Shown here: positions 17,294-50,442 of the stretch, piece after piece | Position numbering within the stretch: position 1 is the first letter of the stretch | How the letters are laid out: every line of letters starts with the position of its first letter | Origin: a bacterium | GTDB lineage: Bacteria > CLD3 > SB21 | Assembly (NCBI GenBank): GCA_008933615.1 | Contig: WBUR01000030.1 | Location: 1 to 54,087, forward strand | DNA: 54,087 bases | Direction: 5' to 3' | Notes under the pieces: generated by a model | The model's input: only the letters and a program-made list of their open reading frames with translations | Told to the model about the DNA's origin: nothing | Database searches by the model: none | Translations under genes and position numbers: made by a program

Positions 17294-18286
17294 TTACTTT
17301 AACGGATCAATTCCCGCCGCCCAACAAATCGTACGCGCGATGACAGTTTTAAAAACCTGAACTTTATATTCGTTCTTCGAAAGCGGACCGGCGTCTTTCA
17401 TTGCCGCCTCGGCCGCTCGCTGCGCAAGTTCTTTCGTAACTATATTTCCTTTCAGCAGCGCCTCGGCTTTTTGGATACGCCACGGGATCGGGGCAGCAGC
17501 TCCCAAAACGATACGAGAATCCGTGCATTTTCCTTCATGTAGATGCATGACGACGGCAACTTCCGCGATCGGCCAGTCAAAACTCTGTTTTTCTTTTTGT
17601 TTATAATAATAACTTGTCCAGCCCGGCGTCAGTGGCGGAATAATGATCTCAGTGATCAATTCGCCTTGTTTCAAAATATGCTCGCTTGCCATATTTACCG
17701 AAGGCATAACATAAAATTCAGAGATCGGGATCTCACGTTCCGCCTTTTCAGAAGCTATTTTCAATTTCGCATCGAGGGCCATGAGCGCGACAGCCGTTGC
17801 GGAGGGATGAACGATCACGCATCCTTCATCATTACCGAAAATCGCGTGGTACTGGTTTTCTCCGTCGAATGCATAACAGATCTTGCCGTTTTTTCGTGAA
17901 CAATCGAAATCGGCGCTTCTAAAATACCAGCAGCGCGGACGCTGGCATAAATTACCGCCCAATGTGGCTACGTTTCTGATCTGCGGCGTTGCCGCCCCCA
18001 AGGCCGCCTGCGACAAGGCTTTGTAGGCATCCTGCAATTTATCGCTGCTTGAAATTTCGTCGAGTGTGGCGGTCGGCCCGATAACGATTCCGCGGCGTCC
18101 GTCCTGTGTGATGTAGTGCAGATCCTCTAAGGAACGGATATGCACCAGGCGTTGCGGCTGCGTGAGCCCTTCTTTCATGAGATCCAAAAGGTCGATACCG
18201 CCGGCTTTGATTTGGGAGCCGGGTTCTTTGAGAAAAGTAAAAACCTCGTCAATTTTTTTGGGAACGGCATACTCGAATTTATTCAT
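17294..18286 (-). CDS. FAD-binding subunit of a PaoABC-like molybdenum hydroxylase
   Basis: The electron-transfer subunit of a xanthine dehydrogenase-family enzyme (330 residues, the usual CoxM/PaoB size). The FAD-binding segments are IKAGGIDLLDLMKEG near the N-terminus and RNVATLGGNLCQ in the middle. Directly after comes an insert with four Cys (CQRPRCWYF, DCSRKNGKIC), matching the extra 4Fe-4S cluster known in PaoB and 4-hydroxybenzoyl-CoA reductase and absent from ordinary CoxM subunits. AGGAG precedes the ATG. The gene follows the cupin by nine bases, so translation is probably coupled. The subunit passes electrons from the 2Fe-2S subunit to an unidentified acceptor. Confidence 0.88.
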   Translation of the reverse strand: MNKFEYAVPKKIDEVFTFLKEPGSQIKAGGIDLLDLMKEGLTQPQRLVHIRSLEDLHYITQDGRRGIVIGPTATLDEISSSDKLQDAYKALSQAALGAATPQIRNVATLGGNLCQRPRCWYFRSADFDCSRKNGKICYAFDGENQYHAIFGNDEGCVIVHPSATAVALMALDAKLKIASEKAEREIPISEFYVMPSVNMASEHILKQGELITEIIIPPLTPGWTSYYYKQKEKQSFDWPIAEVAVVMHLHEGKCTDSRIVLGAAAPIPWRIQKAEALLKGNIVTKELAQRAAEAAMKDAGPLSKNEYKVQVFKTVIARTICWAAGIDPLK

Positions 18287-18295
18287 ATGATTCTC

Positions 18296-18664
18296 CTAAA
18301 TGTTTTCAAGCTGGCGGAGCGTCCGCTCTGACTCAATATTACCCGTATTCAATGTTGTCTTGGGTTCAAGCAGAAGCAGGTGCACTTCTTCTTCCGCAAC
18401 AGGCAAATGATCCACGCCTTTGGGAATAATGACAAATTCACCTTCATTTAACTGCAAATCACGGTCTCTCAATCTCATAAGTAATTTTCCTTTGATCACG
18501 AGAAACATTTCATCTTCGTTATCATGATGATGCCAGATAAATTCTCCTTTGAGCTTTGCTAATTTCACGTGCGTATCATTGATCTCACCCACGATTTTCG
18601 GGCTCCAATGATCTTGGAACATTGAAAATTTTTCGTTAATATTTACTTTTTCAATCACGATCAT
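18296..18664 (-). CDS. Cupin-domain protein inside the Mo-hydroxylase operon
   Basis: A 122-residue single cupin. WHHHDNEDEMFLVIKGKLLM carries the HxH...E metal motif and GEFVIIPKGVDHLPVAEEE the second motif with its His. No signal peptide is present. Its ATG overlaps the stop of the molybdopterin subunit by four bases (ATGA) and the FAD subunit starts nine bases after its stop, so it is translationally embedded in the enzyme operon. Cupins of this type often act as isomerases or sensors; a role in substrate handling or protection is only inference. Confidence 0.75.
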   Translation of the reverse strand: MIVIEKVNINEKFSMFQDHWSPKIVGEINDTHVKLAKLKGEFIWHHHDNEDEMFLVIKGKLLMRLRDRDLQLNEGEFVIIPKGVDHLPVAEEEVHLLLLEPKTTLNTGNIESERTLRQLENI

Positions 18665-20943
18665 GCTCCTTTTATCGCTTTAAAAACCACCGCCGGCGTC
18701 ATAGGGAGTTCACGCACACGCACCCCCGTTGCATGAAAGACCGCATTGGCAATAGCGGCGGCCGTTGGAATGGTTGCCGGTTCGCCGATGCCCATCGCGC
18801 CGGTGCTGGACTGCCCGCGATTGACATCGATGACGACCGATTCAATTTCCGGAATATCCATGGAGCCGGCTATCTTGTACTGTTCAAGGTTAGGATTAAC
18901 CATGATGCCCGTTTGGGCGTCAAGCAAACGGTTTTCAAATAGCGCATAGCTGACGCCCTGAATAATTCCGCCGTTAATCTGACTTTCTAACGTGAGACGA
19001 TTCATCGGACGCCCGCAGTCGTGCACCGCCACGATACGTTTCACTTTGACGACGCCGGTTTCCGTGTCGACTTCCACGTCGGCGAACTGAACGCCGGCGA
19101 TGAACGGTCCGGCCTGGAGGTGATCTTTAAAACGTTCGCCCGTTACGGTAAATTTTTCGCCGACTATTTTCGACGCCACTTGTTTCCACGTCAGACCCTT
19201 TGTCGTATCGGATTGAATGAATATCCTGCCGTCAGCTAACGCGAGTTGATCAACCGTAGTTTTCAGCAGCGGCGCGGCTATATCGAACATTTTCATTTTT
19301 GCTAAGTAAGCGGCATTGCGCACTGCGGGAGTAATGCCCGCCGTTGTCTGACTGCCGCCGCTGGCCGGCCCGAGCCCGTAATTCGAATCGCCGATCTTGA
19401 CAATAATATCGGTCGGTTTCAATCCGAGTTCTTCCGCAACCACCATGGCGACCACAGTCTTGATTCCACCGCCAATATCCTGCACGCCGTTGGTCAGTTC
19501 CACCGAGCCGTCACCGGTGACCTGAATAGAAGCTTGAAACCCGGTACCGTAAATATAATACCACACAGAATTCGCTATGCCGACGCCGCGTTTGATCGGC
19601 CCGGAATCCGCTCCGGGTTTGCTTTTACGCTTGTCCCAACCGAATTTTTTTGCGCCGATCGCATATTCGGCTTGGCGAACTTCATCATACAACGTATTTT
19701 TCTTTCGAAATTCCAGCGGATCGATATTGAGTTTGTAGGCCATTTCATCGATCGCCTGTTCCATCGCAAAAGCGCCTTGCGGATGTCCGGGCGCACGAAA
19801 TGCCGCGCCGGGTCCGGCATTGGTGAAGATGTCGGATTCTTCGGTATAGATATGTTCCGTTTTGAAATAAATATTTTTCGCAGGCCCTGACGTGCCGGCA
19901 CCCGTGCCCACGCCGGCCGTTCCGTATGAAACGAGTTTAATAGCCTTAAGCGATCCGTCTTGGGATGCCCCGAGTTTGACCGTTTGCGTAGAATCCGGCC
20001 GGTTGCCTACGGCAAGATGTTCCGACTTGCGGTCAAGCATAAAACGAACAGGCGCTTGGGTTTTTTTCGCTAACTTTGCCGCCATAATACCGTAAATGCC
20101 CGCGCCGAACTTAGCGCCGAAACCGCCGCCCATGTGTTCCGTCAGCACGCGTACCTGGGTTCGCGGAATTTGAAACACGCCTGCCAATTCGCTCTGCACG
20201 CTGAATACACCCTGAGTTGAAGCCCAAACAGTAAGCTGATCGCCTTCCCACTTCGCGACAACGCCGTGCGTCTCCATTGCAGAATGCGTCTGTACTTGCG
20301 TGCGGTAAGTTGCTTCGATCACAACATCGGATTGCCTTAGCGCGTTTTCGACTGCGGATAAATTTCCGCTAACTTTAGGTCCGCGAATATTTCCTTTTTG
20401 GGAAACATTTCCGCTATCCTCCGGTGCATCGCCTTCGGATGTTTTAGATTCTACACTGGAGTCAAAAACCACCGGCGATTTGGGCGACTTGGCTTGCTCG
20501 GCAGTTAAAACAAATTTACGTGTATCATATTCTATCGATATTAGTTTTGCCGCCTCGTGCGCCTGATGCGCTGTCTCCGCAGCGATGGCGCAGATCTCCT
20601 GTCCGGCGAAGCGAATGATCATCGGCAGTTTGTCCTGGATGAGTATCACCGATTTAACGCCCGGATAATTTTCCGCTTTGGATATATCGATCTTTCTGAT
20701 CACGCCCGCGGGGAAATGAGACCGCAAAAAATATCCGTGGAGCATGCCGGGCAACTGAATATCGAAAGTATATTTAGCTCGACCTGTTACCTTGTCCTTG
20801 CCCTCAGTGCGAGTAGAACGTCCTCCGATGAATTTAAGTTCATCTCCGCCATCCCATGGTTTCGGCGTGTTATCCGGTATGTCGGCTTTTAACTCTCTCA
20901 GATTTTTTTCGACGCCAACTTTGAGCGTTACGGATTTGGACAT
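18661..20943 (-). CDS. Molybdopterin-binding catalytic subunit, xanthine dehydrogenase/PaoC family
   Basis: A 760-residue catalytic subunit of a molybdenum hydroxylase. The N-terminal part (about 45-190) is the a/b hammerhead domain (RSTRTEGKDKVTGRAKYTFD). The Mo-binding region holds GGGFGAKFG, FRAPGHPQGAFAMEQAIDE, and near the C-terminus GAMGIGEPATIPTAAAIANA, whose Glu sits where the catalytic base lies in this family. Length and sequence style are closer to PaoC than to purine dehydrogenases, suggesting aldehydes or aromatic heterocycles as substrates. Residues about 160-200 form a polar insert (SVESKTSEGDAPEDSG). GGAG precedes the ATG. No XdhC/PaoD-type insertion chaperone is visible nearby. 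Confidence 0.9.
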   Translation of the reverse strand: MSKSVTLKVGVEKNLRELKADIPDNTPKPWDGGDELKFIGGRSTRTEGKDKVTGRAKYTFDIQLPGMLHGYFLRSHFPAGVIRKIDISKAENYPGVKSVILIQDKLPMIIRFAGQEICAIAAETAHQAHEAAKLISIEYDTRKFVLTAEQAKSPKSPVVFDSSVESKTSEGDAPEDSGNVSQKGNIRGPKVSGNLSAVENALRQSDVVIEATYRTQVQTHSAMETHGVVAKWEGDQLTVWASTQGVFSVQSELAGVFQIPRTQVRVLTEHMGGGFGAKFGAGIYGIMAAKLAKKTQAPVRFMLDRKSEHLAVGNRPDSTQTVKLGASQDGSLKAIKLVSYGTAGVGTGAGTSGPAKNIYFKTEHIYTEESDIFTNAGPGAAFRAPGHPQGAFAMEQAIDEMAYKLNIDPLEFRKKNTLYDEVRQAEYAIGAKKFGWDKRKSKPGADSGPIKRGVGIANSVWYYIYGTGFQASIQVTGDGSVELTNGVQDIGGGIKTVVAMVVAEELGLKPTDIIVKIGDSNYGLGPASGGSQTTAGITPAVRNAAYLAKMKMFDIAAPLLKTTVDQLALADGRIFIQSDTTKGLTWKQVASKIVGEKFTVTGERFKDHLQAGPFIAGVQFADVEVDTETGVVKVKRIVAVHDCGRPMNRLTLESQINGGIIQGVSYALFENRLLDAQTGIMVNPNLEQYKIAGSMDIPEIESVVIDVNRGQSSTGAMGIGEPATIPTAAAIANAVFHATGVRVRELPMTPAVVFKAIKGA

Positions 20944-20973
20944 GGCAACTCCTTTATAACTGTAAAACAGACA

Positions 20974-21399
20974 TTATAAATTATCATGAAAAATAATCAG
21001 CGCTAAACCTGCAGAGATTAGAACGATGCCGACCGCTTTCAAAAGGCTGCCTTTGGAAAACATCCTGGGTTTATCTGCGGCCGGTGTCTTTTGTGAATCG
21101 GAACGAACAATAGACTGAATGCTTGAGAGAGAAATTTCCACTAGGTCGTAATTTCTGTTAGTAGAATTAAATACATACACGATAATTTGATTGTCGTTGG
21201 CAGAAGCCCGGATATATCCGTCAATCCGTTGGGGCTTACCGGTTTCATTTCTGTATTGAATCGTGAAGATCTCATTTTTACCGATGTACTCTCTTTTAAG
21301 AAGCGCATAATCGTAAAGGACGGTGGACGATTCCTGAGCCAAAGCAGGAAATGAAAGACATCCAATCGCTATGACATATAAAAAAGTTATCGCTTTCAT
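20974..21399 (-). CDS. Small secreted protein with C-terminal membrane helix, unknown
   Basis: A 141-residue protein of unrecognised family. It has a signal peptide (MKAITFLYVIAIGCLSFPALA), a beta-rich centre (IFTIQYRNETGKPQRIDGYI, DLVEISLSSIQSIVRSD) and one C-terminal hydrophobic helix (VGIVLISAGLALIIF). The layout matches its neighbour at 21418 and the lipoprotein at 6927. It sits between the iron-sulfur and molybdopterin subunits on the same strand, with 30 bases to the latter, so it should be expressed with the enzyme. GAGGA precedes the start. Confidence 0.6.
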   Translation of the reverse strand: MKAITFLYVIAIGCLSFPALAQESSTVLYDYALLKREYIGKNEIFTIQYRNETGKPQRIDGYIRASANDNQIIVYVFNSTNRNYDLVEISLSSIQSIVRSDSQKTPAADKPRMFSKGSLLKAVGIVLISAGLALIIFHDNL

Positions 21400-21417
21400 A
21401 CAGTCCTCATCAGTTTG

Positions 21418-21822
21418 TTATTGCGTCCAAATGCCTATCGCGATGACTATGGAAACGGCAATCGCGACGGTTCCGGCAATTTTTGCGCTCCGATCAAATT
21501 CAAAAGCGCCCTTTTTAAATGAGATTTCGCTGATATTTTTTAATGGCAGATCCACATCAACAAATTTTCTCTGTTTATGTTCATAATATTGAAATGTGAT
21601 ATAGTTTTCTTTAGGGGAGGAAATGATGTATCCGGTTTCTTCATACATCAGATCCTTCTGAACAAAAAACCGAAGCTGCACGGCTCTTTTTTTTTCGATG
21701 AATTCTTTTTTAATTGAATCCATGTTCACCTCGTTATGGCGGTACACGGTTTTGCTGCCGGAACAGCCGGCAAAGAAAAAGGCGAAAACGATCAAGGCCA
21801 ACTGACTAAAATAAAAAAGCAT
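21418..21822 (-). CDS. Putative lipoprotein with C-terminal membrane helix, unknown
   Basis: A 134-residue protein. The leader MLFYFSQLALIVFAFFFAGC ends in a lipobox Cys (FAGCSGS). The centre is beta-rich (GYIISSPKENYITFQYYEH, FVDVDLPLKNISEISF) and the C-terminus is hydrophobic (IAGTVAIAVSIVIAIGIW). It resembles the downstream gene at 20974 in order of parts and in the L-x-x-I-x-x-I strand. It begins six bases after the iron-sulfur subunit stop, implying coupling. A role in anchoring or docking the enzyme at the membrane is possible but unproven. Confidence 0.6.
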   Translation of the reverse strand: MLFYFSQLALIVFAFFFAGCSGSKTVYRHNEVNMDSIKKEFIEKKRAVQLRFFVQKDLMYEETGYIISSPKENYITFQYYEHKQRKFVDVDLPLKNISEISFKKGAFEFDRSAKIAGTVAIAVSIVIAIGIWTQ

Positions 21823-21828
21823 CTGGGG

Positions 21829-22461
21829 TTAACCTTGCTTAACTGTTTTCATCACCGCATCAAATACGTTTTGATAAGTTCCGCACCGGCAAAGATTTCC
21901 GCTGGTGGCTAATTTTACATCATCTAATGTTGGTTTGGAATTATGATCCAAAAGGTTTTTGCAGCTCATCACCATGCCGGGCGTGCAGAATCCGCATTGC
22001 ATGGCGTCATGTTCGATGAATGCCTCCTGTAGAGCATGGTATTTGCCGCTATTTTCTAAACCTTCGATCGTCTCGATTTCTGCGCCAACGGCATCCATCG
22101 CCAGTGTCATACAGGACGTCTGTGTTTTGCCATCGAGAATTACGGTACATGCTCCGCACGCGCCGCGTTCACAGCCGGTTTTCGTTCCGGTCAGATGAAG
22201 TTGATCGCGCAAAACCTCAACCAGAGTGGTTCTGGGCTCGGCCAGCACCCGATGGTTCTTGCCGTTCACACGCAATGAAATTTGCTGCGCATCCGGGCCT
22301 GCGATGGTACCCTGTGCCGGTGCACAGGAAGCCTGAATTGTTCCAAGCAGTCCTTCGCTTCCCGCCGCTATACCAATAGACGTCATGCCGAAGCCTTTTA
22401 GAAATTTACGGCGTGTGATGCCGCCCGGATTTCCTGGACTGTTCTTTTTTGATTTTTTCAT
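21829..22461 (-). CDS. Tat-exported 2Fe-2S subunit of a PaoABC-like molybdenum hydroxylase
   Basis: The iron-sulfur subunit (210 residues). Its leader contains TRRKFLKGFG, so the folded complex would be exported by the Tat system, as for E. coli PaoA. The ferredoxin-like domain has GCERGACGACTVI plus a later Cys (QTSC) for the first 2Fe-2S cluster. The helical domain has QCGFCTPGMVMSC and GNLCRCGTY for the second. All eight ligands are present. AAGGA precedes the ATG. It is first in the minus-strand operon that runs to about 17016, separated from the catalytic subunit by two small envelope genes. Confidence 0.9.
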   Translation of the reverse strand: MKKSKKNSPGNPGGITRRKFLKGFGMTSIGIAAGSEGLLGTIQASCAPAQGTIAGPDAQQISLRVNGKNHRVLAEPRTTLVEVLRDQLHLTGTKTGCERGACGACTVILDGKTQTSCMTLAMDAVGAEIETIEGLENSGKYHALQEAFIEHDAMQCGFCTPGMVMSCKNLLDHNSKPTLDDVKLATSGNLCRCGTYQNVFDAVMKTVKQG

Positions 22462-27563: not shown

Positions 27564-27592
27564 TTGACAAACGGGCATTTTTTGTTTATTAT
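27564..27592 (+). promoter_or_regulatory. Strong sigma-70 promoter for the porin/flavin gene set
   Basis: TTGACA (27564-27569), a 17-base spacer and TATTAT (27587-27592). Predicted start near 27599, just before the first palindrome, giving an untranslated leader of about 240 bases. Confidence 0.75.
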
Positions 27593-27607: not shown

Positions 27608-27626
27608 ATTGAGAATTAATCTCAAT
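27608..27626. promoter_or_regulatory. Fur-like palindrome 1
   Basis: ATTGAGA-ATTAA-TCTCAAT. The core TGAGAATTAATCTCA matches the Fur 7-1-7 consensus TGAGAATNATTCTCA at all but one position. It lies just downstream of the predicted start point, where a bound repressor would block transcription. Confidence 0.65.
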
Positions 27627-27627
27627 C

Positions 27628-27661
27628 AATAAAGCCATTGGATGTTAAGGGCTTTATTTTA
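27628..27661 (+). terminator. Leader hairpin 1 (terminator-like)
   Basis: Perfect 9-bp stem aataaagcc / ggctttatt with a 13-base loop and a short T-run (stem end plus tt). Weak to moderate as a terminator. Confidence 0.45.
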
Positions 27662-27664
27662 GGA

Positions 27665-27693
27665 TTATAATTGAGAATAAATCTCAATTATAA
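27665..27693. promoter_or_regulatory. Fur-like palindrome 2 (12-bp arms)
   Basis: TTATAATTGAGA-ATAAA-TCTCAATTATAA, a perfect 29-bp palindrome and the longest of the four. It contains the same TTGAGA-N5-TCTCAA core. Confidence 0.7.
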
Positions 27694-27701
27694 AAACAAA
27701 A

Positions 27702-27731
27702 ATGCTCCGAGCAATTCTGGGCATAATTTTT
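27702..27731 (+). terminator. Leader hairpin 2 (terminator-like)
   Basis: atgctc / gggcat stem (one G-T pair, 11-base loop) followed by aa and five Ts. Moderate. Confidence 0.45.
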
Positions 27732-27741
27732 AAACTTTGTA

Positions 27742-27758
27742 TTGAGAATAAATCTCAA
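27742..27758. promoter_or_regulatory. Fur-like palindrome 3
   Basis: TTGAGA-ATAAA-TCTCAA, identical in core and loop to palindrome 2. Confidence 0.65.
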
Positions 27759-27765
27759 ATGAATA

Positions 27766-27797
27766 AATGTTCAAGGCTTGTTGAACATTATTTTTTT
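27766..27797 (+). terminator. Leader hairpin 3 (strong terminator-like)
   Basis: Perfect 9-bp stem aatgttcaa / ttgaacatt, loop ggcttg, then a T-run of seven. It lies between the promoter and the porin start codon, 43 bases before the ATG. Confidence 0.7.
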
Positions 27798-27805
27798 AAT
27801 TGCCG

Positions 27806-27822
27806 TTGAGAATTTGTCTCAA
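27806..27822. promoter_or_regulatory. Fur-like palindrome 4
   Basis: TTGAGA-ATTTG-TCTCAA. It ends 17 bases before the porin ATG and just upstream of its AGGAG ribosome site. The centre deviates most from the other three. Confidence 0.6.
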
Positions 27823-27839
27823 TCATATTTAGGAGAACT

Positions 27840-29120
27840 ATGAGAGTTGTCACACCGTTATTATTACTTGCTCTAATCTCAGCACCGCTCAAAGCTCAAT
27901 CCATTCAAGATTCGCTAAAAGAAGTGAACAGAAAAATCGACATCTTGACTGAAGAGATCGAAAGGTTGAAGCTTGGAAAAGTTGCTGAGATCAAATACGC
28001 ATCGTCCCGCGGCCTCGGCCCTGCGGCGGCCAAAGTATACCAGGTTGACCAAGGCGTTTCCATTGCCGGTTACGGAGAATTGGTTTATGAAAATTATTCA
28101 AGAAAAAGAGACGATAAATCCATGTCGTCATCGCAGGATCAATTCGATTACCTGCGTAATATCCTGTATTTCGGATACCGCTTCAGTGATCGAATCCTTT
28201 TTAATTCCGAAATCGAGTTCGAACACGGCTATACCGGTAAGCAGCGCGGCGGAAAACCTATCGGAGAAGTTGGGATGGAATTCGGTTATATCGAACTGAT
28301 GTTTAACAAACACGCCAATCTGCGTGCGGGTATGGTGCTTATCCCGGTGGGTATTATCAATGAAAAACACGAACCCTCGACTTTTTTCGGGACCCTGCGT
28401 CCCCAGGTTGAACAGCGCATTATTCCTACCACCTGGCGTGGCAACGGAATCGGCTTATACGGAGAGATCTTTTCAGGCCTCGAATACCGGGCGTATGTGG
28501 TCGAAGGCCTTGATGCAACCAATTTTACCGCTAAAGACGGTATCCGAGACGGGCGACAATTGGGTTCAAAAGCCTATGTTGAGCATTTTGCCCTTACGGC
28601 AAAATTCGAATATTCGGGCGTTCGCGGACTGATTTTCGGAACAAGTTTCTATTCCGGCAATGCCAATCAAACCATCGTTGACTCCCTAAAAGGGTGGGAA
28701 CCGAACGTGACAATTTTGAGCGCTCACGCGGAATGGTCGTGGAAGGGCCTGGAAACGCGCGCTTTGTATGTACAAAACAACTTGACCGGCACTAAACTAT
28801 TCAATCAGGAGTTCGGAAAAACGATAGGCAAAACGATGAAAGGCTGGTACGTGGCTGCAGGTTATGATGTCATGCCGCTGATCAAAGCGGGGACGGCTCA
28901 CTATCTTGCGCCGTATATTCAATATGAATCGTTTGACACCCAAGCCGATGTTGCCAGCGGACTGTCGCGCGATCCTGAATCCGAACGCATGATCACGACG
29001 GTCGGCATTTCGTACAAACCGCATCCGAATGTGGCTTTTAAATTTGATTTCCGAAATAACGCTAATGAAAAGAAAACCGGGAATGATCAATGGAATTTGG
29101 CAATTAATTATCTTTTTTAA
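27840..29120 (+). CDS. Outer-membrane porin with N-terminal coiled coil
   Basis: A 426-residue barrel protein. Signal peptide MRVVTPLLLLALISAPLKAQ; a short coiled coil at about 22-48 (EVNRKIDILTEEIERLKL), typical of trimeric porins; then a barrel of about 16 strands beginning GVSIAGYGELVYENY and ending WNLAINYLF with terminal Phe. The segment LRAGMVLIPVGIINEKHEP resembles phosphate-selective porin O/P-like proteins. AGGAG lies five bases before the ATG. The promoter and four Fur-like palindromes upstream suggest iron-responsive control, so passage of an iron compound or flavin is plausible but unproven. Confidence 0.8.
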   Translation: MRVVTPLLLLALISAPLKAQSIQDSLKEVNRKIDILTEEIERLKLGKVAEIKYASSRGLGPAAAKVYQVDQGVSIAGYGELVYENYSRKRDDKSMSSSQDQFDYLRNILYFGYRFSDRILFNSEIEFEHGYTGKQRGGKPIGEVGMEFGYIELMFNKHANLRAGMVLIPVGIINEKHEPSTFFGTLRPQVEQRIIPTTWRGNGIGLYGEIFSGLEYRAYVVEGLDATNFTAKDGIRDGRQLGSKAYVEHFALTAKFEYSGVRGLIFGTSFYSGNANQTIVDSLKGWEPNVTILSAHAEWSWKGLETRALYVQNNLTGTKLFNQEFGKTIGKTMKGWYVAAGYDVMPLIKAGTAHYLAPYIQYESFDTQADVASGLSRDPESERMITTVGISYKPHPNVAFKFDFRNNANEKKTGNDQWNLAINYLF

Positions 29121-29230
29121 TGGAGGACTCACATTCAAGATTTTTAAAGCATGATGACACCAAGGCAGGAAGTAGCAAAATGAGGAATAATTTTTTGTCT
29201 TCGTATAACTTTCTTTTTTCGTGTCTCCGA

Positions 29231-29255
29231 GGTAATTCTTGAATTATCCTTTAAA
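29231..29255 (+). terminator. Hairpin downstream of the porin gene
   Basis: ggtaattc-tt-gaattatcc (one-base bulge) followed by ttt. A partial terminator or processing hairpin between the porin and the rest of the set. The 428-base gap 29121-29548 otherwise contains the small Cys-rich frame described next. Confidence 0.4.
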
Positions 29256-29266
29256 GAATAGATCAC

Positions 29267-29455
29267 GTGCATAACGATTGCTGCAAAAATTATAAAAAGA
29301 AAAAAGCCTGCAAACATTGTCCGGTGTGGGCCGAACTTCGTCGGATGGATCAAACGATTAAACGCAGGGAAGTGCGGTACTTTTTAAAAGCTGCAGCGCT
29401 TACTATGACACATGTATCTGACCAAACAGATTCTCGAAAACTTGACAGGTATTGA
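29267..29455 (+). CDS. Small Cys-rich protein, uncertain
   Basis: A 62-codon frame starting at GTG with only a weak ribosome site. The front half reads HNDCCKNYKKKKACKHCP, four Cys within a basic run, resembling small metal- or Fe-S-binding proteins. The rest has no recognisable domain. It lies in the gap between the porin and the second barrel gene. It could be a real small gene of the iron-linked set or chance; the ordered CC..C..CP pattern favours real. Confidence 0.4.
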   Translation: MHNDCCKNYKKKKACKHCPVWAELRRMDQTIKRREVRYFLKAAALTMTHVSDQTDSRKLDRY

Positions 29456-29548
29456 CCGCCGAAATATGCGCATGATTCGATTTTACTTTTTTTCAGCCAA
29501 ACAGGATAAACCAACAATATACAAAACAAAATCAAACTTGAAGGCCTT

Positions 29549-30328
29549 ATGAAACTAAATAAACTCATCGCATTTCTAATGATGTGCACGCTCCACCTCC
29601 AGGCTCAGGATGCGGTCATTTCTGATAATTCGTTTCTGATTGAAGAAGCTTACAATCAGGAACCGCGCGTAGTACAGCATATTTCAAACTTAAGTTATGC
29701 AAAAAAATTAAAAGAATGGGAATATGCTCTGACACAGGAATGGCCGCTTTTTACTCAAACCCACCAACTCAGTTATTCCATACCGTATACGTGGTTGAAC
29801 GGTAATTCAGTTGTGGGATTTGGCGACGTTGCCGTAAACTATCGTTACCAGTTATGGGATGATGCCCGGTGGGCGGCCATTTCCCCGCGCCTCACGGTCA
29901 TCTTGCCAACCGGCGACAAAAAGAAGGGGCTTGGTTCAGGCAAAACGGCATATCAAGTCAATCTGCCTCTAAGCAAACGCATCAGTCCTTCTTGGGTTCT
30001 TCATGTCAATGCCGGTGCGGCGATTATGCCCGGTGTATCTTCCGGAACAACAAAAGAGACACTGTGGAGCTATAATGCAGGCGCCAGTGTAATCTGGTTA
30101 GTAAAAAGCAATTTTAATGTATTGGTAGAATTTGTATCCACTTTTGATGACGAAATTATGGCCGGACAAGTAAAGAATTCGGCGAGTTATACAGTCATTC
30201 CCGGGTTTAGGTATGCTCACAATTTAGGTTCTTTACAGATTGTTCCGGGATTGGGCGTACCGATGGAACTCAGCGGAAAGAAAACAAAACGTGCGTTTTT
30301 TTACCTCTCACTTGAGCATCCATTTTAA
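29549..30328 (+). CDS. Outer-membrane beta-barrel (phenol-degradation meta-pathway-like family)
   Basis: A 259-residue protein with signal peptide MKLNKLIAFLMMCTLHLQAQ and a barrel of alternating strands: HQLSYSIPYTWL, GFGDVAVNYRYQLW, AISPRLTVILPTGDKKKGLG, then WVLHVNAGAAIM and a terminal FFYLSLEHPF ending in Phe. The GFGDVAVNYRY and ISPRLTVILPTGD segments match the transporter-like family annotated as the MetA pathway of phenol degradation. Its stop overlaps the start of the FMN-binding gene by one base (TAATG), so the two are co-translated. Probably an outer-membrane conduit of the flavin module. Confidence 0.7.
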   Translation: MKLNKLIAFLMMCTLHLQAQDAVISDNSFLIEEAYNQEPRVVQHISNLSYAKKLKEWEYALTQEWPLFTQTHQLSYSIPYTWLNGNSVVGFGDVAVNYRYQLWDDARWAAISPRLTVILPTGDKKKGLGSGKTAYQVNLPLSKRISPSWVLHVNAGAAIMPGVSSGTTKETLWSYNAGASVIWLVKSNFNVLVEFVSTFDDEIMAGQVKNSASYTVIPGFRYAHNLGSLQIVPGLGVPMELSGKKTKRAFFYLSLEHPF

Positions 30329-30897
30329 TGAGTTTGCCAAACCCATACGGAAAAGTTACCGGCAGTATCGGATCTGTTTTTTGCTTACTGCTGCTGCTGA
30401 CTTACACACCGGCTCACGCCCAAGTTTACATGACAAAAGATGAAGCGCTGCATTTGCATTTTCCGAACAAACAAAATGTATTCCGCAAAAACATATTTCT
30501 CACGGACGATCAGGTACGGCAAATTCAAGATAAAGCACGGGCTAAAGTTGATTCTAAAATTCTGACGTATTACGAATACCGTGAAGAAGGAAATATTCGA
30601 GGCGTTGCATTTTTTGAAACGCAAACTGTTCGAACGCATCCGGCAACATTCATGATCGTACTCAATTCGGACGGATCAGTGAAGGCGGTTGAAATGCTGG
30701 CATTTTATGAACCGGAAGATTATCTGCCGCCAAAAAAGTGGATGGATCAATTCAAGAACAAGACTCTGCAAAACGACATTTATCCTAAACGTGGAATCCC
30801 CAATGTGGCAGGTGCGACGCTTTCGGCACAAGCGATCACGGAGAGTGTAAGAAAGTATATGATTATTCATGAATTTCTAATTAATAAGGGAAAGTAA
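30328..30897 (+). CDS. Secreted FMN-binding-domain protein, ApbE substrate
   Basis: A 189-residue protein with signal peptide (about residues 1-31, ending PAHA-Q). Residues about 90-178 form an FMN_bind domain: GVAFFETQTVRTHPATFMIV and the flavinylation segment NVAGATLSAQAITESV, with Thr164 as the expected residue for phosphoester-linked FMN. The preceding residue is Ala where Ser or Thr is more common. The family carries electrons outside the cytoplasm. It starts within the stop of the barrel gene and is followed one base later by a four-helix membrane protein, with ApbE, the enzyme that attaches FMN, two genes down. Confidence 0.85.
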   Translation: MSLPNPYGKVTGSIGSVFCLLLLLTYTPAHAQVYMTKDEALHLHFPNKQNVFRKNIFLTDDQVRQIQDKARAKVDSKILTYYEYREEGNIRGVAFFETQTVRTHPATFMIVLNSDGSVKAVEMLAFYEPEDYLPPKKWMDQFKNKTLQNDIYPKRGIPNVAGATLSAQAITESVRKYMIIHEFLINKGK

Positions 30898-30898
30898 T

Positions 30899-31453
30899 AT
30901 GCAGTACCTGCAAAAAGGCGGTTTCCAGCAAAATCCTCTCATGCGGCTTACGCTGGGTTTTACCGTGCTATTTCTCGTCGGATTTGTTGTGACAAATTTT
31001 ATGATCTATTTTTCAAAGATGGGACTTACGCCGGATTCCGTTATCGCCTATTACAACGGATCAGAGGAGACGTTCCATCCGGCTCGGACCTACGGCTCTA
31101 TGCTGGAAGTGACGCACGGGCATTTACCCGTGATGGCAATCCTTATTCTCATGTTGACGCATCTCGTTCTTTTTTCTCCGTTTACAAAAAACCAAAAAAT
31201 TGCTTTTATTATTTTGTCATTTCTCTCCGCGTTTTTGGATGAAGGATCGGGCTGGCTGGTGCGGTTTGTACATCCTCAGTTTGCCTGGTTAAAAATAGGT
31301 TCGTTTCTGATTTTACAAGCGAGCCTGATCTTTTTATTGATTTCTTTGACGCTCTTCTTGTTTCATTCATGCGCGGAGTCAAAAGATAAAGAAATTCTCA
31401 CGTCCGGTTTGGATGATGCCAATGAGATTGCGGAGGATTCTCAAAAGCCGTAG
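30899..31453 (+). CDS. Four-helix inner-membrane protein of the flavin module
   Basis: A 184-residue protein with helices at about 16-36, 78-97, 103-124 and 134-158. His residues flank the second helix (EVTHGHLPVMAILILMLTH) and FVHPQF lies in a loop; paired His on helices can bind heme, but this is only a possibility. The C-terminal tail is acidic. No family recognised. It lies one base after the FMN-binding gene and 29 bases before ApbE, so it probably docks or reduces the flavoprotein from the membrane. Confidence 0.6.
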   Translation: MQYLQKGGFQQNPLMRLTLGFTVLFLVGFVVTNFMIYFSKMGLTPDSVIAYYNGSEETFHPARTYGSMLEVTHGHLPVMAILILMLTHLVLFSPFTKNQKIAFIILSFLSAFLDEGSGWLVRFVHPQFAWLKIGSFLILQASLIFLLISLTLFLFHSCAESKDKEILTSGLDDANEIAEDSQKP

Positions 31454-31482
31454 AATAATAAAAAGATATAGAAAGACATGAA

Positions 31483-32478
31483 ATGGATAACTCCCGGCGA
31501 AATTTTCTTAAACAAACGGCATGTTTTGTGTTCAGCGGTACAATCCTGAATAACATACCGTATCTTTCAGCTCAAACACGGCCTGCTTTAGTGGAGCGTG
31601 CATTTTATACCATGGGCACGATTGTCAAAATAAGCGCATATGGAGATTCTGTTCGCAATATCCATCAGGCTATAACGAAAGCGCAGGAAGAATTTCAGAG
31701 ATTGGATTCGGTGATGAGCGTGTATAGATCCGATAGCCATGTGAGTTTTATCAATAAAGCCGCAGGGAGGAACGAAGTGCCCGTAGATCGATCCGTCATT
31801 GACATTCTGCGTAGTGCCAAAATATTCTATGAAAAAACCGGCGGATCATTCAATATTTGTATCGAGCCGATGATGCGTTTGTGGGGATTTCGCAATGAGT
31901 CCAAAACGATATCCCGTATGCCTAGTGACAGGGAATTGTACCGCGCAATAGAGACTATTTCAATTAATCATTTAGTAATCAATGATCGGGGAAACACAGC
32001 AGGGCTTTCGAACGAGGGCTCAGCCATAGATTTGGGGGGAATTGCCGTCGGTTATTCTGTGGATCGTGCTGCGAAAATATTACAGTCAGAAGGAATTGAA
32101 AATTTTCTAATTAATCACAGCGGCGATATCTATGCTTCGGGAACGCCGCCGGAAAGCAGCGGTTGGGTAATAAGTATTCCAGATCCCCAAAAACCATCCG
32201 ACTTAATTAAAACTGTTTCAATTCGAGACCGCGCTGTATCCACGTCGGGAAATTATGAATCGTTTGTGGCGCACCTTGACAAAAAATTCGGGCATATTCT
32301 GGACCCGCAAACCGGTTATCCTTGTGATAGGCTCTTGAGTCTCACCACGGTTTGTTCGACTGCAATGGAGGCAGACGCTTACTCGACTGGATATTTTTGT
32401 AATGGAAATGTTCCTGCAGAGATGACTTACATTGCGGTCACGTCAGATGCAAAAGTTTTCGTCTCCAATAATATTTAG
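31483..32478 (+). CDS. apbE: FAD:protein FMN transferase
   Basis: Transfers FMN from FAD onto a Thr/Ser of target proteins outside the cytoplasm. The 331 residues match ApbE length. The leader has SRRNFLKQTACFVFSG, a Tat-like signal. Motifs: AFYTMGTIVKISAYG, the FQRLDSVMSVYRSDSHVSFIN region, GSAIDLGGIAVGYSVDRA (flavin- and metal-binding), LINHSGDIYASG, VSTSGNYESF and HILDPQTGYP, followed by TAMEADAYST, which contributes the Mg site. The FMN-binding protein two genes upstream is the obvious target. The gene is convergent with the histidine kinase, 16 bases apart, with no terminator between them. Confidence 0.92.
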   Translation: MDNSRRNFLKQTACFVFSGTILNNIPYLSAQTRPALVERAFYTMGTIVKISAYGDSVRNIHQAITKAQEEFQRLDSVMSVYRSDSHVSFINKAAGRNEVPVDRSVIDILRSAKIFYEKTGGSFNICIEPMMRLWGFRNESKTISRMPSDRELYRAIETISINHLVINDRGNTAGLSNEGSAIDLGGIAVGYSVDRAAKILQSEGIENFLINHSGDIYASGTPPESSGWVISIPDPQKPSDLIKTVSIRDRAVSTSGNYESFVAHLDKKFGHILDPQTGYPCDRLLSLTTVCSTAMEADAYSTGYFCNGNVPAEMTYIAVTSDAKVFVSNNI

Positions 32479-38277: not shown

Positions 38278-40674
38278 ATGATCAAGAATTATTTAAAAAC
38301 GGCATTTCGCAGGCTGGAGCGGAACAAAAGTTTTGCTCTGATAAATATCGCCGGATTATCGCTGGGCATAACCTGTGCGCTGATCATTTTCTTACTGGTA
38401 AAACATGAACTCAGCTTTGACGGCTTTCATTCGAAGAAAGACCGTATTTATCGTGTGAATACGGTTTGGACCCGCGATGGAGAGGTCGACCGAAGCGGTG
38501 CATCTCAATTTCCTGTTGCGGCTGCCATCCGTTCACAGTTCAGCGATTTAAAAGCCACCATGATCAATTACGTAAAAGAGGCTTTAATAGCCGTTCCGAA
38601 CGGAACAGACACGCCCTCCAAATTTCAAGAGAACGAAGGAGTGGTTTATATTGAACCCGATTTCTTCGATATCTTCGATCGGACATGGTTTCGCGGACAT
38701 CCGTCTCTTTTGAAGGAACCCTATACGGTTGCGCTCAGCGAAAGTACGGCAAAAAAATTTTTTCCAAATGAAAATCCGGTCGGGAAAACGATCCGCATGA
38801 ATTCGGAATGTGACCTGAAAGTGATCGGCGTCGTAACCGATCCGCCGGTTAATACGGACTTCCCTTTCACCGTACTCATTTCATATTCCACACAAAAAGC
38901 GTTGGGCTATTTTTCCAATATGGAGAATTGGGGCGCCACGATGAGTTTCATCAATACGTACATCTTCGTACCGGAAATATGGAGCGCTGCGTCCTTCAAC
39001 GAACGATTGACTGCGTTTGCAAAAACTCATCTGGATGAACGCAAGCGCAAGGAACGCTCCTATGAAGTTCAATCATTATCCGATGTGCATTTCGATCCCG
39101 ACGCGGGTAATTATACGCATGTTACCAGCCGTACCAGTATCTGGGCGCTTTCGATCATCGCTTTTTTCCTGATCGTGACGGCGTGTATTAATTTTATCAA
39201 TCTTGCAACGGCACAGGCGGTCACCCGCTCTAAAGAAATCGGCGTTAGAAAAGTTCTCGGTGCTTTTCGTGCTCAGTTGCTGATACAATTTCTGGGAGAG
39301 ACTTTTGTCATTACGTTTTTGGCCATCGTATTATCGATCGGTATGACAGAAATGATCCTGCCGTTAGTCAACGATGCGTTCAGCTTCAATATCCGCTTCA
39401 ATTTATTCAATGATCCGTTGATCCTTCTTTTTCTTGCCGGATTAGCGGTCGTGATCACGGCGGGTTCCGGGTTTTATCCGGCACTTATGATGGCGGGATA
39501 CAGCCCGGTGTCGGTTCTCAAAGGGGGGCAATCCTCGAAAGCGGGCGGGTTGCTGGTAAGGAAAGGGCTTGTCGTTCTGCAATTCATGATCGCTCAGGCG
39601 CTCGTCATCGGAACGATCGTCGTGTTTCGTCAGATGGATCTTTTTCAGACTACGGATATGGGGTTTATCAAAGATGCCATCATTACGACCAATATACCCG
39701 TTAAGGATAAATCCAAAATGCAGACTCTTCGCAACGAAATCATGAAAGAAACCGGAGTCCAGAATGTAACGTTTGGATTTGCTCAGGTTGCTTCGGGCAT
39801 GCGCTGGACTTCGATGATGATCTATCGCGGCCCGGCCGGTAAAACCTACGAAGCCCTTGCCGACGTTCGCTGCGGGGATGAGTTTTATATTCCAACCTAC
39901 GGTATTCAAATGCTTGCCGGACGCAATTTCACGGCCAGCGACAGCATCCATGAATTGGTGATCAACGAAACGATGGCCCAAAAAATAGGATTTACCAATC
40001 CCGCAGATGCCGTTGGAAAGATAGTGTATGTCTTTGGTTCCGAGCCCAAACCGATCGTTGGTGTTGTGAAAGATTTTAATACAGGATCGTTGCGGGCATC
40101 CATCTATCCGACCATATTGGCGCCGCGGAGCAAGGATTACCGGATCATGGGCGTCAAGATCGATATGAAACGGGCCAAAATATTGCTGCCGAAGATCGAA
40201 GCGGCGTGGGCGGCAACGTATCCTGAATTCCTCTACCGGTCCCAATTCCTGGACGAATCGATCGCCGGATTTTATGAGGACGAACAAAAGATTTCAAGGT
40301 TATTTACAATTTTCGCTTCCATTGCTATCGGTATCGGTTGTCTCGGATTATTCGGATTGGTCTCATTCATGGCCGTACAGCGTACGAAAGAGATCGGTGT
40401 TCGAAAAGTTCTGGGCGCATCTGTTTCCGATATTTTAATGATGTTCACTAAAGAATTTGCAGTTCTAATCCTGATCGCATTTCTCATTGCAGCACCGGCG
40501 GCGTATGTGGTCATGAACGGGTGGCTCGAAGATTTTGCGTATCGGATTTCTATTGGCGCCGAAGTGTTTTTTACAGCCGTCATGCTAACAATTATTATAT
40601 CCGGAGTAACGGTAGGATACCGTTCGATCAAAGCGGCTTCCGCGAATCCCGTTGATGTCCTAAAGTACGAATAG
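38278..40674 (+). CDS. MacB/FtsX-type permease A
   Basis: First of six paralogous permeases (798 residues). Each half has a large periplasmic domain and an FtsX transmembrane bundle: helix 1 at about 20-42 (ALINIAGLSLGITCALIIFL), a first periplasmic domain to about 280, FtsX helices (about 285-410) with the coupling segment EIGVRKVLGAFRAQ, a second periplasmic domain and a second bundle (about 665-798) with EIGVRKVLGASVSD. The C-terminus ANPVDVLKYE is shared by the whole set. The family exports peptides, lipoproteins or antibiotics, or transmits force across the membrane. It starts 15 bases after ATPase 1. Confidence 0.9.
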   Translation: MIKNYLKTAFRRLERNKSFALINIAGLSLGITCALIIFLLVKHELSFDGFHSKKDRIYRVNTVWTRDGEVDRSGASQFPVAAAIRSQFSDLKATMINYVKEALIAVPNGTDTPSKFQENEGVVYIEPDFFDIFDRTWFRGHPSLLKEPYTVALSESTAKKFFPNENPVGKTIRMNSECDLKVIGVVTDPPVNTDFPFTVLISYSTQKALGYFSNMENWGATMSFINTYIFVPEIWSAASFNERLTAFAKTHLDERKRKERSYEVQSLSDVHFDPDAGNYTHVTSRTSIWALSIIAFFLIVTACINFINLATAQAVTRSKEIGVRKVLGAFRAQLLIQFLGETFVITFLAIVLSIGMTEMILPLVNDAFSFNIRFNLFNDPLILLFLAGLAVVITAGSGFYPALMMAGYSPVSVLKGGQSSKAGGLLVRKGLVVLQFMIAQALVIGTIVVFRQMDLFQTTDMGFIKDAIITTNIPVKDKSKMQTLRNEIMKETGVQNVTFGFAQVASGMRWTSMMIYRGPAGKTYEALADVRCGDEFYIPTYGIQMLAGRNFTASDSIHELVINETMAQKIGFTNPADAVGKIVYVFGSEPKPIVGVVKDFNTGSLRASIYPTILAPRSKDYRIMGVKIDMKRAKILLPKIEAAWAATYPEFLYRSQFLDESIAGFYEDEQKISRLFTIFASIAIGIGCLGLFGLVSFMAVQRTKEIGVRKVLGASVSDILMMFTKEFAVLILIAFLIAAPAAYVVMNGWLEDFAYRISIGAEVFFTAVMLTIIISGVTVGYRSIKAASANPVDVLKYE

Positions 40675-40707
40675 ATGTGAGTCGAGTATAAAACAGGGAG
40701 TCGATTT

Positions 40708-43059
40708 ATGTTAAAAAATTATTTTAAAATTGCGTTGCGAAACATCTTGCGTCAGAAAGGCCATTCCTTCATAAATATTTCCGGCCTGGCGGTCGGATTG
40801 GCGTGTACCGTTTTGATCGTAATGTGGATTCAGGACGAACTCAGTTACGACCATTTTCATAAAAACGGCAATCGGATCTTCCGCGTGGTCGAAAATCAAT
40901 TCTACGGCGGCGGGGATGCATTCCAGACGCCACAGACGCCCGCGCCGTTGTCCGCCGTTTTAAAAAGCGAATTTCCAGAGATCGAAAAAACCACGCGCGT
41001 GCTGTTCACCCCCAACAAACTTCTTTTTGATTATAAAGATCAACGTTTCTACGAATCCAACGGTCTATACGTGGATCCGGAATTTCTGTCTATGTTTTCA
41101 TTTCCATTGACGGCCGGTCAGTCGGACGTAGCGCTAAAGGATCCCAACTCAATCATCCTTACAAAAGAGTTCGCACAGAAATACTTCGGCTCGGAAGATC
41201 CGATGGGTAAATCGATCCGGGTAGATAAATACAATTTAGTGGTGACCGGTATTTTTGAAAAGATACCGCGCCAATCGCATCTGCAGTTTGATTTTGTTTT
41301 ACCTGCGGAACGGCTGCGGATGGATGTTCCGGACCAATTTACGCCATGGGGTAATAACTGGCTCAGGACTTACGTCATGCTGAATCCGAACACGGATTAT
41401 CGTCAGTTCACGGAAAAGATTGCCGACGTGATTAAGAAACATAACGATCAGTCCAAAACCGAATTGTTCCTTCAACCGATGACCGACATTTATCTGCGCA
41501 CGGATTTTAATCATACACCCACGCGAATGAATTATGTGTACACCCTGGGCGTGATCGCTGCGCTGATTCTGCTTATCGCATGTATTAATTTTACGAATCT
41601 TTCCACGGCCCGTTCGCTGAAACGATCACGCGAAGTCGGTTTACGAAAAGTGGTCGGCGCAGACCGGTTTCAATTGATCAAACAATTTCTGGGTGAAGCG
41701 TTTTTTCTTTCTCTGATCAGCATGGGCATCGCACTGGTTCTGATTGAAATCATTCTGCCTTTTTTTAACGATTTAACGGCAAAAAGCATTGCCCTGAATT
41801 TCTTTGATTCCGGCATAGGCCTCATGTTGATTTCAATAGTGATCATCACCGGTATCCTGTCGGGAATCTATCCGGCTTTGGTACTGTCCGGATATAGGCC
41901 GGTACAGGTGCTGAAGGGAAGTTTTCAGAAAAGTACGCAGGGCGTACTTCTTCGTCGAATTCTCGTTACCGTTCAATTTACTTTGTCTATCGCGCTTATC
42001 ATTAGCGCCGCCTTCATCTATCAACAGTTGGAATTCATGCAACATAAGAGCCTGGGCTATGAAAAAGAGCAATTGATCCGTATTCCGCTTCGCGGTGAGA
42101 CAAGGAATACCTATTCTACTTTTAAGGAACGCCTGCTGCAGAACAGGCGTATACTCAGTGTTTCGGCCTCTAATCATTCCATTTCCAGTTTCGGAACCAA
42201 CACTTGGGATGTCAAATGGCCAGGGCAGAGGGAAGATGAAAAAGTATTGACCACAGTAACAGCTATCGATTACGACTATCTAAAGACCATGCGCATGGAG
42301 CTTGTTCATGGCCGGGAATTTTCAAAAGAATTTCCCACGGATTCCGTGAATGTAATTATTAATGAAAAAGCAATGCAGGCTATGAATTTAATGGATCCGT
42401 TGTCTGCCAGCCTTAAGTTCTGGGACGAGACGCATCCGATAGTCGGCGTAGTAAAGGATTTCCATTATCAATCCGTTCGATCAGAAATAATTCCTCTGGT
42501 ATTCATTTATAATTCCGGATCGGTGCGCAATGTTTTTGCGAAAATTCAATCCCATGACATGGCGGCAACGGTTAAATCCATCGAAAATGACTGGACGTCG
42601 GTCAATTTGGGCAGTCCTTTTGAGTTCAATTTTGTTGATGAAGAAATCGACCAATTATATCGCTCCGAACAACAGCTATCTAAGATCTACAACTCATTTG
42701 CCATTTTAGCGGTTTTCATTTCTTGTTTGGGGCTTTTTGGGTTAGCGTCCTTTGCCACAGAACAACGCACCAAGGAAATTGGTATTCGTAAAGTATTGGG
42801 AGCTTCAATCGCCAGGATCGTGTCGACGCTAACGACGGAATTTCTAAAGCTCGTATTACTGGCCAATATCATTGGTTGGCCGATTGCCTATCTTCTAATG
42901 TCTCGATGGCTGCAGGATTTTGCATACCGGATCGACATTAATATAGGGACATTCATTTTAACGGGCTTGGTTACCTTGATCATTGCAATAGCGACCGTGA
43001 GTTACCGGGCGATTCGCGCGGCTACGGCGAATCCGGTAGAAGCCTTGAAATATGAGTAA
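40708..43059 (+). CDS. MacB/FtsX-type permease B
   Basis: 783 residues, same layout as permease A, including opening NYFKIALRNILRQKGHSFIN, ELSYDHFHKNGNRIFRVVEN, the first coupling segment EVGLRKVVGADRFQ, second EIGIRKVLGASIAR and ending ANPVEALKYE. The first periplasmic domain (about 45-280) differs strongly from that of A, as expected if the copies bind different partners or substrates. A GGGAGT site precedes the ATG; 33 bases separate it from A, so it is in the same transcript. Confidence 0.9.
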   Translation: MLKNYFKIALRNILRQKGHSFINISGLAVGLACTVLIVMWIQDELSYDHFHKNGNRIFRVVENQFYGGGDAFQTPQTPAPLSAVLKSEFPEIEKTTRVLFTPNKLLFDYKDQRFYESNGLYVDPEFLSMFSFPLTAGQSDVALKDPNSIILTKEFAQKYFGSEDPMGKSIRVDKYNLVVTGIFEKIPRQSHLQFDFVLPAERLRMDVPDQFTPWGNNWLRTYVMLNPNTDYRQFTEKIADVIKKHNDQSKTELFLQPMTDIYLRTDFNHTPTRMNYVYTLGVIAALILLIACINFTNLSTARSLKRSREVGLRKVVGADRFQLIKQFLGEAFFLSLISMGIALVLIEIILPFFNDLTAKSIALNFFDSGIGLMLISIVIITGILSGIYPALVLSGYRPVQVLKGSFQKSTQGVLLRRILVTVQFTLSIALIISAAFIYQQLEFMQHKSLGYEKEQLIRIPLRGETRNTYSTFKERLLQNRRILSVSASNHSISSFGTNTWDVKWPGQREDEKVLTTVTAIDYDYLKTMRMELVHGREFSKEFPTDSVNVIINEKAMQAMNLMDPLSASLKFWDETHPIVGVVKDFHYQSVRSEIIPLVFIYNSGSVRNVFAKIQSHDMAATVKSIENDWTSVNLGSPFEFNFVDEEIDQLYRSEQQLSKIYNSFAILAVFISCLGLFGLASFATEQRTKEIGIRKVLGASIARIVSTLTTEFLKLVLLANIIGWPIAYLLMSRWLQDFAYRIDINIGTFILTGLVTLIIAIATVSYRAIRAATANPVEALKYE

Positions 43060-43090
43060 ACTGTGATCGCTATAAAGAACAGGAGATGAC

Positions 43091-45460: not shown

Positions 45461-45510
45461 AGGATCAAATCATTTCGCTATAAATAGTATTAGAAGAAAC
45501 AGGTGAAAGC

Positions 45511-47910: not shown

Positions 47911-47967
47911 ATATAAACGGATTATGTCTTTGGTAGCCAATTGTTGTAAGCAACAAAGGAGTCGTTG

Positions 47968-50376: not shown

Positions 50377-50442
50377 ATAAAAAAAGTGCCCTTAAGAGCG
50401 AATGAATAGTTAGTCATTACCAATAACGATTCACGGAGGATT

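Follow-up and report, generated by a model that had tools for sequence, protein, structure and literature searches.

Gene clusters in which an ApbE flavin transferase and an FMN (flavin mononucleotide)-binding protein are combined with a PepSY-like or MsrQ-like membrane protein, and for which iron reduction has been proposed, were described by Meheust et al. 2021 (PMC8238504). Small cytochromes b of the DUF4405, MsrQ and FezC types are also encoded near apbE and possess conserved membrane histidines, FezC forming its haem sites as a homodimer (PMC11334425). In Bradyrhizobium japonicum the FsrB-FeoAB system is reported to reduce iron in the periplasm before import by FeoAB (PMC10760861). A five-gene module with features of these systems lies at positions 27840-32478 on the + strand of the stretch analysed here (54,087 nucleotides of contig WBUR01000030.1, hereafter the window), in a 3.77 Mb genome of 97 contigs from a small phylum with nine genomes in the collection. 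The genes encode a porin, a second outer-membrane barrel, an FMN-binding protein, a four-helix membrane protein and ApbE. We consider it likely that this is an operon for assimilatory ferric reduction under iron starvation, in which the porin, a flavinylated protein and a quinol-linked four-helix protein would feed FeoB.

With the clusters of PMC8238504 the locus shares ApbE and the FMN-binding protein, a membrane protein for electron entry, Fur control (reported there for the PepSY clusters, predicted here) and a proposed reduction of iron in the periplasm. Unlike those clusters, its membrane protein falls into none of the five listed classes and into no Pfam family, the module is linked to FeoB rather than VIT1, and a general porin stands where they have a TonB receptor; neither "porin" nor FeoB occurs in that text. 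The window protein resembles DUF4405, MsrQ and FezC in being a small membrane protein with conserved membrane histidines encoded near apbE, but differs in having an H-x-H pair plus a third histidine (H88) on one helix, haem binding here being putative. The FsrB-FeoAB route (PMC10760861) is alike in outline, with periplasmic reduction before Feo import, and differs in its reductase and in using a siderophore route in place of a porin. The likeness to P19-FTR1 iron systems comes from one locus, L114, where a relative of the four-helix gene has FTR1-FtrD, FtsX, an ABC ATPase and a PF13557 barrel as neighbours; the window operon has none of these transporters. What sets the module apart from the closest described systems is the membrane component, the porin and the link to FeoB.

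The five open reading frames (ORFs; 27840-29120, 29549-30328, 30328-30897, 30899-31453 and 31483-32478, in the above order) are all on the + strand and agree in position with the first-pass annotation, as do the one-base overlap between the second barrel and FMN-binding genes and the one-base gap between the latter and the four-helix gene; 29 bases separate the four-helix gene from apbE. That the genes lie together, as had been stated, is true of this tight core, but the porin gene is set apart by 428 bp containing a small conserved Cys-rich ORF. Several relatives have tightly spaced genes, which favours co-transcription in spite of the longer gap here. Sites resembling promoters or terminators are no more frequent between the window genes than expected by chance.

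The product of 30328-30897 is a secreted FMN-binding protein (PF04205, E 2e-5, over the cut-off), to which NCBIfam gives weak RnfG-type matches only. By eye its N-terminus is hydrophobic, as befits a secreted flavin acceptor with the S/T/A-GAT motif, and the predicted FMN site, Thr164 (codon 30817-30819), is the threonine of a VAGAT motif and invariant in 19/19 relatives. The cognate exported ApbE typical of extracytosolic flavinylation systems is also present: 31483-32478 matches PF02424 (244 bits, 2e-72) and has a Tat-like N-terminus (RRNFLK). Both identities first assigned to these genes are thus confirmed by Pfam, and ApbE is predicted to attach FMN covalently to Thr164.

The four-helix inner-membrane protein (30899-31453) was said to carry paired histidines and to belong to no recognised family. 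The pair is real (H73, codon 31115-31117; H75, 31121-31123), and the 18 core members of the family have H73, H75, H88 (31160-31162), R63, E70, E115, R122, K100 and K132, among others, in common. Profile searches with these 18 members matched no family in Pfam or NCBIfam, no PDB sequence family (apart from one chance match) and, at the sequence level, none of the membrane classes linked to flavinylation (NapH, MsrQ, PepSY, DsbD, NQR/RNF, DUF4405); the window protein likewise gave no sequence match to the DUF4405, PepSY and MsrQ models. A sub-threshold match to PF00504 (chlorophyll a-b binding) in 5/18 members, at best 8.6e-4, was taken as motif-level chance. The AlphaFold model, built on 18 sequences only, has four long membrane helices (pLDDT 78, pTM 0.66), and Foldseek found nothing under 1e-3 for it among solved structures; a likeness to LTC4 synthase was dismissed as generic four-helix resemblance. 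In 41 divergent sequences, H73 and H75 are kept in 40, R122 in 35 and H88 in 25, and members of the family are encoded in 43 of the 386 genomes sampled. Judged by hydrophobicity and charge, the HxH pair would be on the periplasmic side of the second transmembrane helix and H88 near the cytoplasmic side. In a homodimer each of the two levels could hold one haem, an arrangement like that proposed for FezC. Since the family is absent from Pfam, NCBIfam and PDB and travels with the FMN-binding protein, the earlier suggestion of a new electron-entry component is a reasonable one.

The porin (27840-29120) matched no Pfam family. Its AlphaFold model (pLDDT 75.7, pTM 0.74) is nevertheless that of a general porin, a 16-stranded outer-membrane barrel preceded by an N-terminal helix, and Foldseek matched it to OmpC, OmpF, PorB and OprP (best E 1.3e-13); identity to 13 relatives is 42-93%. 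As modelled, it appears to be an open general pore, better suited to letting through small ferric chelates or flavins than to exporting electrons. Both of the outer-membrane barrels first annotated are present as genes, but the second (29549-30328) is facultative, being found among relatives only in the window genus and in locus L028. It is PF13557-like, scoring 19.7 bits against a cut-off of 22, and the protein in the homologous position in L114 passes that cut-off.

The Cys-rich ORF in the porin-to-barrel gap (29267-29455, + strand; 62 residues, CC-x8-C-x2-CP, GTG start uncertain) is paralleled by related ORFs in the corresponding operons of five further genomes of the family. This small protein (CC-x8-9-C-x2-CP; L056:5397-5609, L057:3878-4090, L027:7187-7471) is limited to the iron-controlled operons of the family and bears a weak, sub-threshold likeness to a nitrous-oxide-stimulated promoter family protein.

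The arrangement is conserved well beyond this phylum. Seventeen four-helix relatives were taken from contigs whose labels include Ignavibacteria, KSB1, Calditrichota and Bacteroidetes, and in most of them the order is porin, FMN-binding protein, four-helix protein, often followed by ApbE. Of the five-gene order originally proposed, the porin, FMN-binding and four-helix genes are kept together across several phyla; the second barrel rarely is. Within approximately 7 kb of four-helix matches, 40 loci contained an FMN-binding gene in 29 cases, a porin in 24, ApbE in 21 and FeoB in 5. The FeoB figure (5/40) compares with a rough chance of about 0.5% per locus for a 14.5-kb stretch, assuming 1-2 copies per 3.5 Mb. 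FeoB lies directly 5′ of the porin in L026, L028, L029, L030 and L031, and its 3′ part does so in L033 (identified by Pfam in L026 and by similarity in the others). It is a neighbour of the module in Ignavibacteria and KSB1 as well as in five more genomes (L116, L124, L126, L127, L131), which makes twelve loci in all. Downstream of the module in L036 come a DtxR-like repressor, a PepSY_TM protein and FeoB. In L127 a DtxR-like repressor and then FeoB come after the four-helix gene, and in L126 a fused FMN_bind-ApbE protein is situated between the four-helix gene and FeoB. With FeoB beside the module in many genomes, FTR1 in one and DtxR-type repressors in two, the suggestion that the locus serves iron uptake rather than ordinary respiration is upheld.

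Two further elements were observed in these relatives. The feoB-porin gap of Ignavibacteria (L026:5850-6100, L029:5822-6060, L030:2900-3150, L031:5840-6085, L033:1650-1885) contains on the minus strand a conserved promoter (TTGACA-N17-TATATTGA) and, after it, a hairpin (GAGTGCAT/ATGCACTC) with a T-run. This is a candidate gene for a small RNA, about 100 nt long, which would be read in the direction leading away from the porin and matches no Rfam family. In L130:7398-7991, L132:4429-5034 and L133:7332-7940 a protein of about 200 residues (AHITPPVVLxSDRDA...) follows the four-helix gene, in the usual place of the FMN-binding protein; the two tested have no Pfam match.

Iron control, also part of the first-pass annotation, is borne out by a shared motif. 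The palindrome TTGAGA-N5-TCTCAA (TGAGA-N5-TCTCA in the 15-bp geometry typical of Fur) was counted by exact-pattern scans in seven same-family genomes, with the reversed pattern as control; 29 sites were found and no control match, so the four palindromes ahead of the window porin are not due to chance. A CRP/FNR-type site was rejected in view of the 15-bp, Fur-like geometry and the odd centre of the palindrome. Each of the seven genomes has one box in the interval that separates feoAB from an erpA/iscA-type gene, and in every case it lies 12-13 bp past the -10 hexamer of a promoter directed towards feo. Multiple boxes ("ladders") precede the porin in G000, G001, G002 and G006 and operons for a haem-degrading monooxygenase in G005 and G004; in G006 the monooxygenase gene is inside the porin operon. 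In G005 (L064) one box also lies just upstream of a homologue of the second barrel. The remaining exact site of the window genome is inside a response-regulator gene and is probably a chance occurrence. The genome encodes one Fur-family protein (PF01475), the predicted binder of the boxes, and the operon is apparently turned on by iron shortage.

The ladder-bearing loci L056:1667-6334 and L057:3878-5971 have additional genes of iron type, encoding imelysin (PF09375), a di-haem oxidoreductase (PF06537) and DUF6686 and DUF6662 proteins.

The Fur-like sites first noted are indeed four perfect palindromes, but their setting required correction: they lie downstream of a near-consensus promoter, inside a probable leader, and alternate with hairpins, which is an unusual layout. 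The sigma-70-type promoter (TTGACA-N17-TATTAT, 27564-27592, + strand, 11/12 consensus matches) is upstream of all four boxes. Box 1 (TTGAGAATTAATCTCAA, 27609-27625) covers the probable transcription start, and is followed by terminator-like hairpin 1 (27628-27658), box 2 (TTGAGAATAAATCTCAA, 27671-27687), hairpin 2 (27702-27724), box 3 (TTGAGAATAAATCTCAA, 27742-27758), hairpin 3 (27766-27789) and box 4 (TTGAGAATTTGTCTCAA, 27806-27822), the last directly 5′ of the ribosome-binding site. The boxes come from the pattern scans, and the hairpins, all on the + strand and with T-rich tails, from folding and covariation. Equivalent promoters are found in G001, G002 and G006, and by eye in G005. Because box 1 is placed relative to the promoter like the single feoAB box, ordinary promoter repression explains the basic control.

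The same order, promoter-box-hairpin-box-hairpin-box-hairpin-box-start codon, is seen in G000, G001, G002, G006 and the orthologous leader of G005, with box-start spacings of 62-64, 71-74 and 63-64 bp, or roughly 63, 73 and 64 bp. An independent origin of the ladder at unrelated genes was rejected for G005, whose leader is that of the orthologous locus, which has carB and SDR genes beside it like the locus of G006 but no longer the module. Two readings of the ladder remain: cooperative binding of Fur on one face of the DNA (6 and 7 turns), or Fur roadblocks that make weak terminators work. In the latter, each of boxes 2-4 would hold up RNA polymerase at the hairpin and T-tract that immediately precede it, and Fur would thereby cause premature termination besides blocking initiation at box 1. 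DNA-bound regulators are known as roadblocks to elongation (PMC6237814). Each of the 15 spacers in the five leaders has a hairpin with a T-rich tail, its base about 15-17 nt upstream of the next box, and the stems vary in sequence with pairing kept (AATAAAGCC/GGCTTTATT; AATAAAGCTCG/CGGGCTTTATT; ACGCTCAT/ATGAGCGT), while the box half-sites are nearly constant. On the other hand, the hairpins are too weak to pass a strict terminator rule, and the five leaders, being of common descent, may have inherited their spacing. In G004, moreover, three boxes are kept at distances of 74 and 63 bp, equal to 7 and 6 helical turns, without GC-rich hairpins, which points to cooperativity at the DNA level. We therefore put forward the roadblock only tentatively, the balance being somewhat against it. 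An Rfam search of the window leader and eight related loci gave nothing over threshold, and a literature search on Fur with roadblock, terminator and leader returned no pertinent paper.

For the likely function, assimilatory ferric reduction, the following sequence of events may be proposed. When iron is sufficient, Fur would occupy boxes 2-4 in the leader as well as box 1, which lies at the promoter start like the feoAB box, and the operon would be off. When iron is short, the general porin and second barrel would admit ferric iron or small ferric chelates, and perhaps flavins, to the periplasm, and ApbE would attach FMN at Thr164 of the secreted protein. The four-helix protein, likely a dimer, would draw electrons from quinol, probably via haem b on the histidines of its second transmembrane helix, and reduce the FMN, which could then turn Fe3+ into Fe2+ in the periplasm. 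FeoB, encoded elsewhere in the genome under the same box, would import the product. The gene content, its conservation, the shared iron-regulon motif and the FeoB linkage in this scheme are computed results; haem, the quinol donor, covalent FMN, Fe3+ as acceptor and Fur as binder are our predictions.

Several points weigh against this proposal. The window has no FeoB gene next to the module, only 5 of the 40 sampled loci have one within 7 kb, the model of the four-helix protein is of moderate quality and without a solved relative, and general porins need not be iron-specific. Moreover, H88 is missing in 16/41 of the divergent sequences, which limits a two-haem version to the core family.

The flavin protein might instead spare iron by replacing an iron-containing periplasmic carrier, much as flavodoxin replaces ferredoxin, its acceptor being a respiratory or detoxifying enzyme and not iron. 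Fur-type control of a flavoprotein would suit such a role, an idea raised for flavinylation generally (PMC8238504). We nevertheless regard it as improbable, in view of the recurrent linkage to FeoB, FTR1 and iron-dependent repressors; furthermore, no terminal reductase gene is present in the operon or its relatives, and the two pore proteins would be left without a role.

About equally improbable is a role in the handling of haem or porphyrins, with the module importing or reducing compounds of the haem type, or reducing iron set free from haem, instead of acting on free ferric chelates. The haem-degrading monooxygenase in the G006 operon and behind the orthologous G005 leader, and the haem-synthesis genes adjoining the module in L034, L036 and L038, are in keeping with this. 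The monooxygenase, however, is absent from the window genome, no remnant of it was found in the porin-barrel gap, and haem-synthesis neighbours occur at those three loci only, against twelve with FeoB. Haem also seldom passes general porins.

Flavinylated proteins of other bacteria are reported to serve extracellular electron transfer (PMC8238504, PMC9973259). Respiration of extracellular ferric iron or flavins is very improbable here given the iron-starvation-type control in common with feoAB, the FeoB linkage, an operon without a multihaem cytochrome and a porin that looks like an open diffusion pore. The first-pass annotation had offered "extracellular reduction or uptake of iron"; uptake is supported, and extracellular reduction is less likely than periplasmic because the components with a redox role seem to belong to the inner membrane or periplasm, and those of the outer membrane resemble pores.

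Beyond assimilatory ferric reduction by this operon, a bolder generalization, which is unlikely to hold, is that the HxH four-helix family constitutes a new, widespread class of membrane cytochromes that hand on electrons from quinol to a periplasmic, flavinylated ferric reductase feeding FeoB or FTR1, and that in this phylum an operator ladder of boxes alternating with weak terminators lets Fur control not only initiation but also elongation. The extent of ferric reduction before FeoB import among uncultured bacteria is poorly known, and the porin, FMN-binding protein, HxH membrane protein and ApbE can now be named as a portable candidate set for it. An unnamed, widespread membrane family thereby gains a testable role, and the layout of the leader could reveal an action of Fur on elongating polymerase.

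Elsewhere in the window, two gene groups were recognised by eye. Three spaced minus-strand genes (17294-22461) resemble a molybdenum hydroxylase of the xanthine-dehydrogenase type (FAD, molybdopterin and 2Fe-2S subunits), the last of them with a Tat-like signal. Six consecutive large FtsX/MacB-type ABC permeases occupy 38278-52845, preceded by an HlyD-like gene and an ABC ATPase and followed by a further ATPase.

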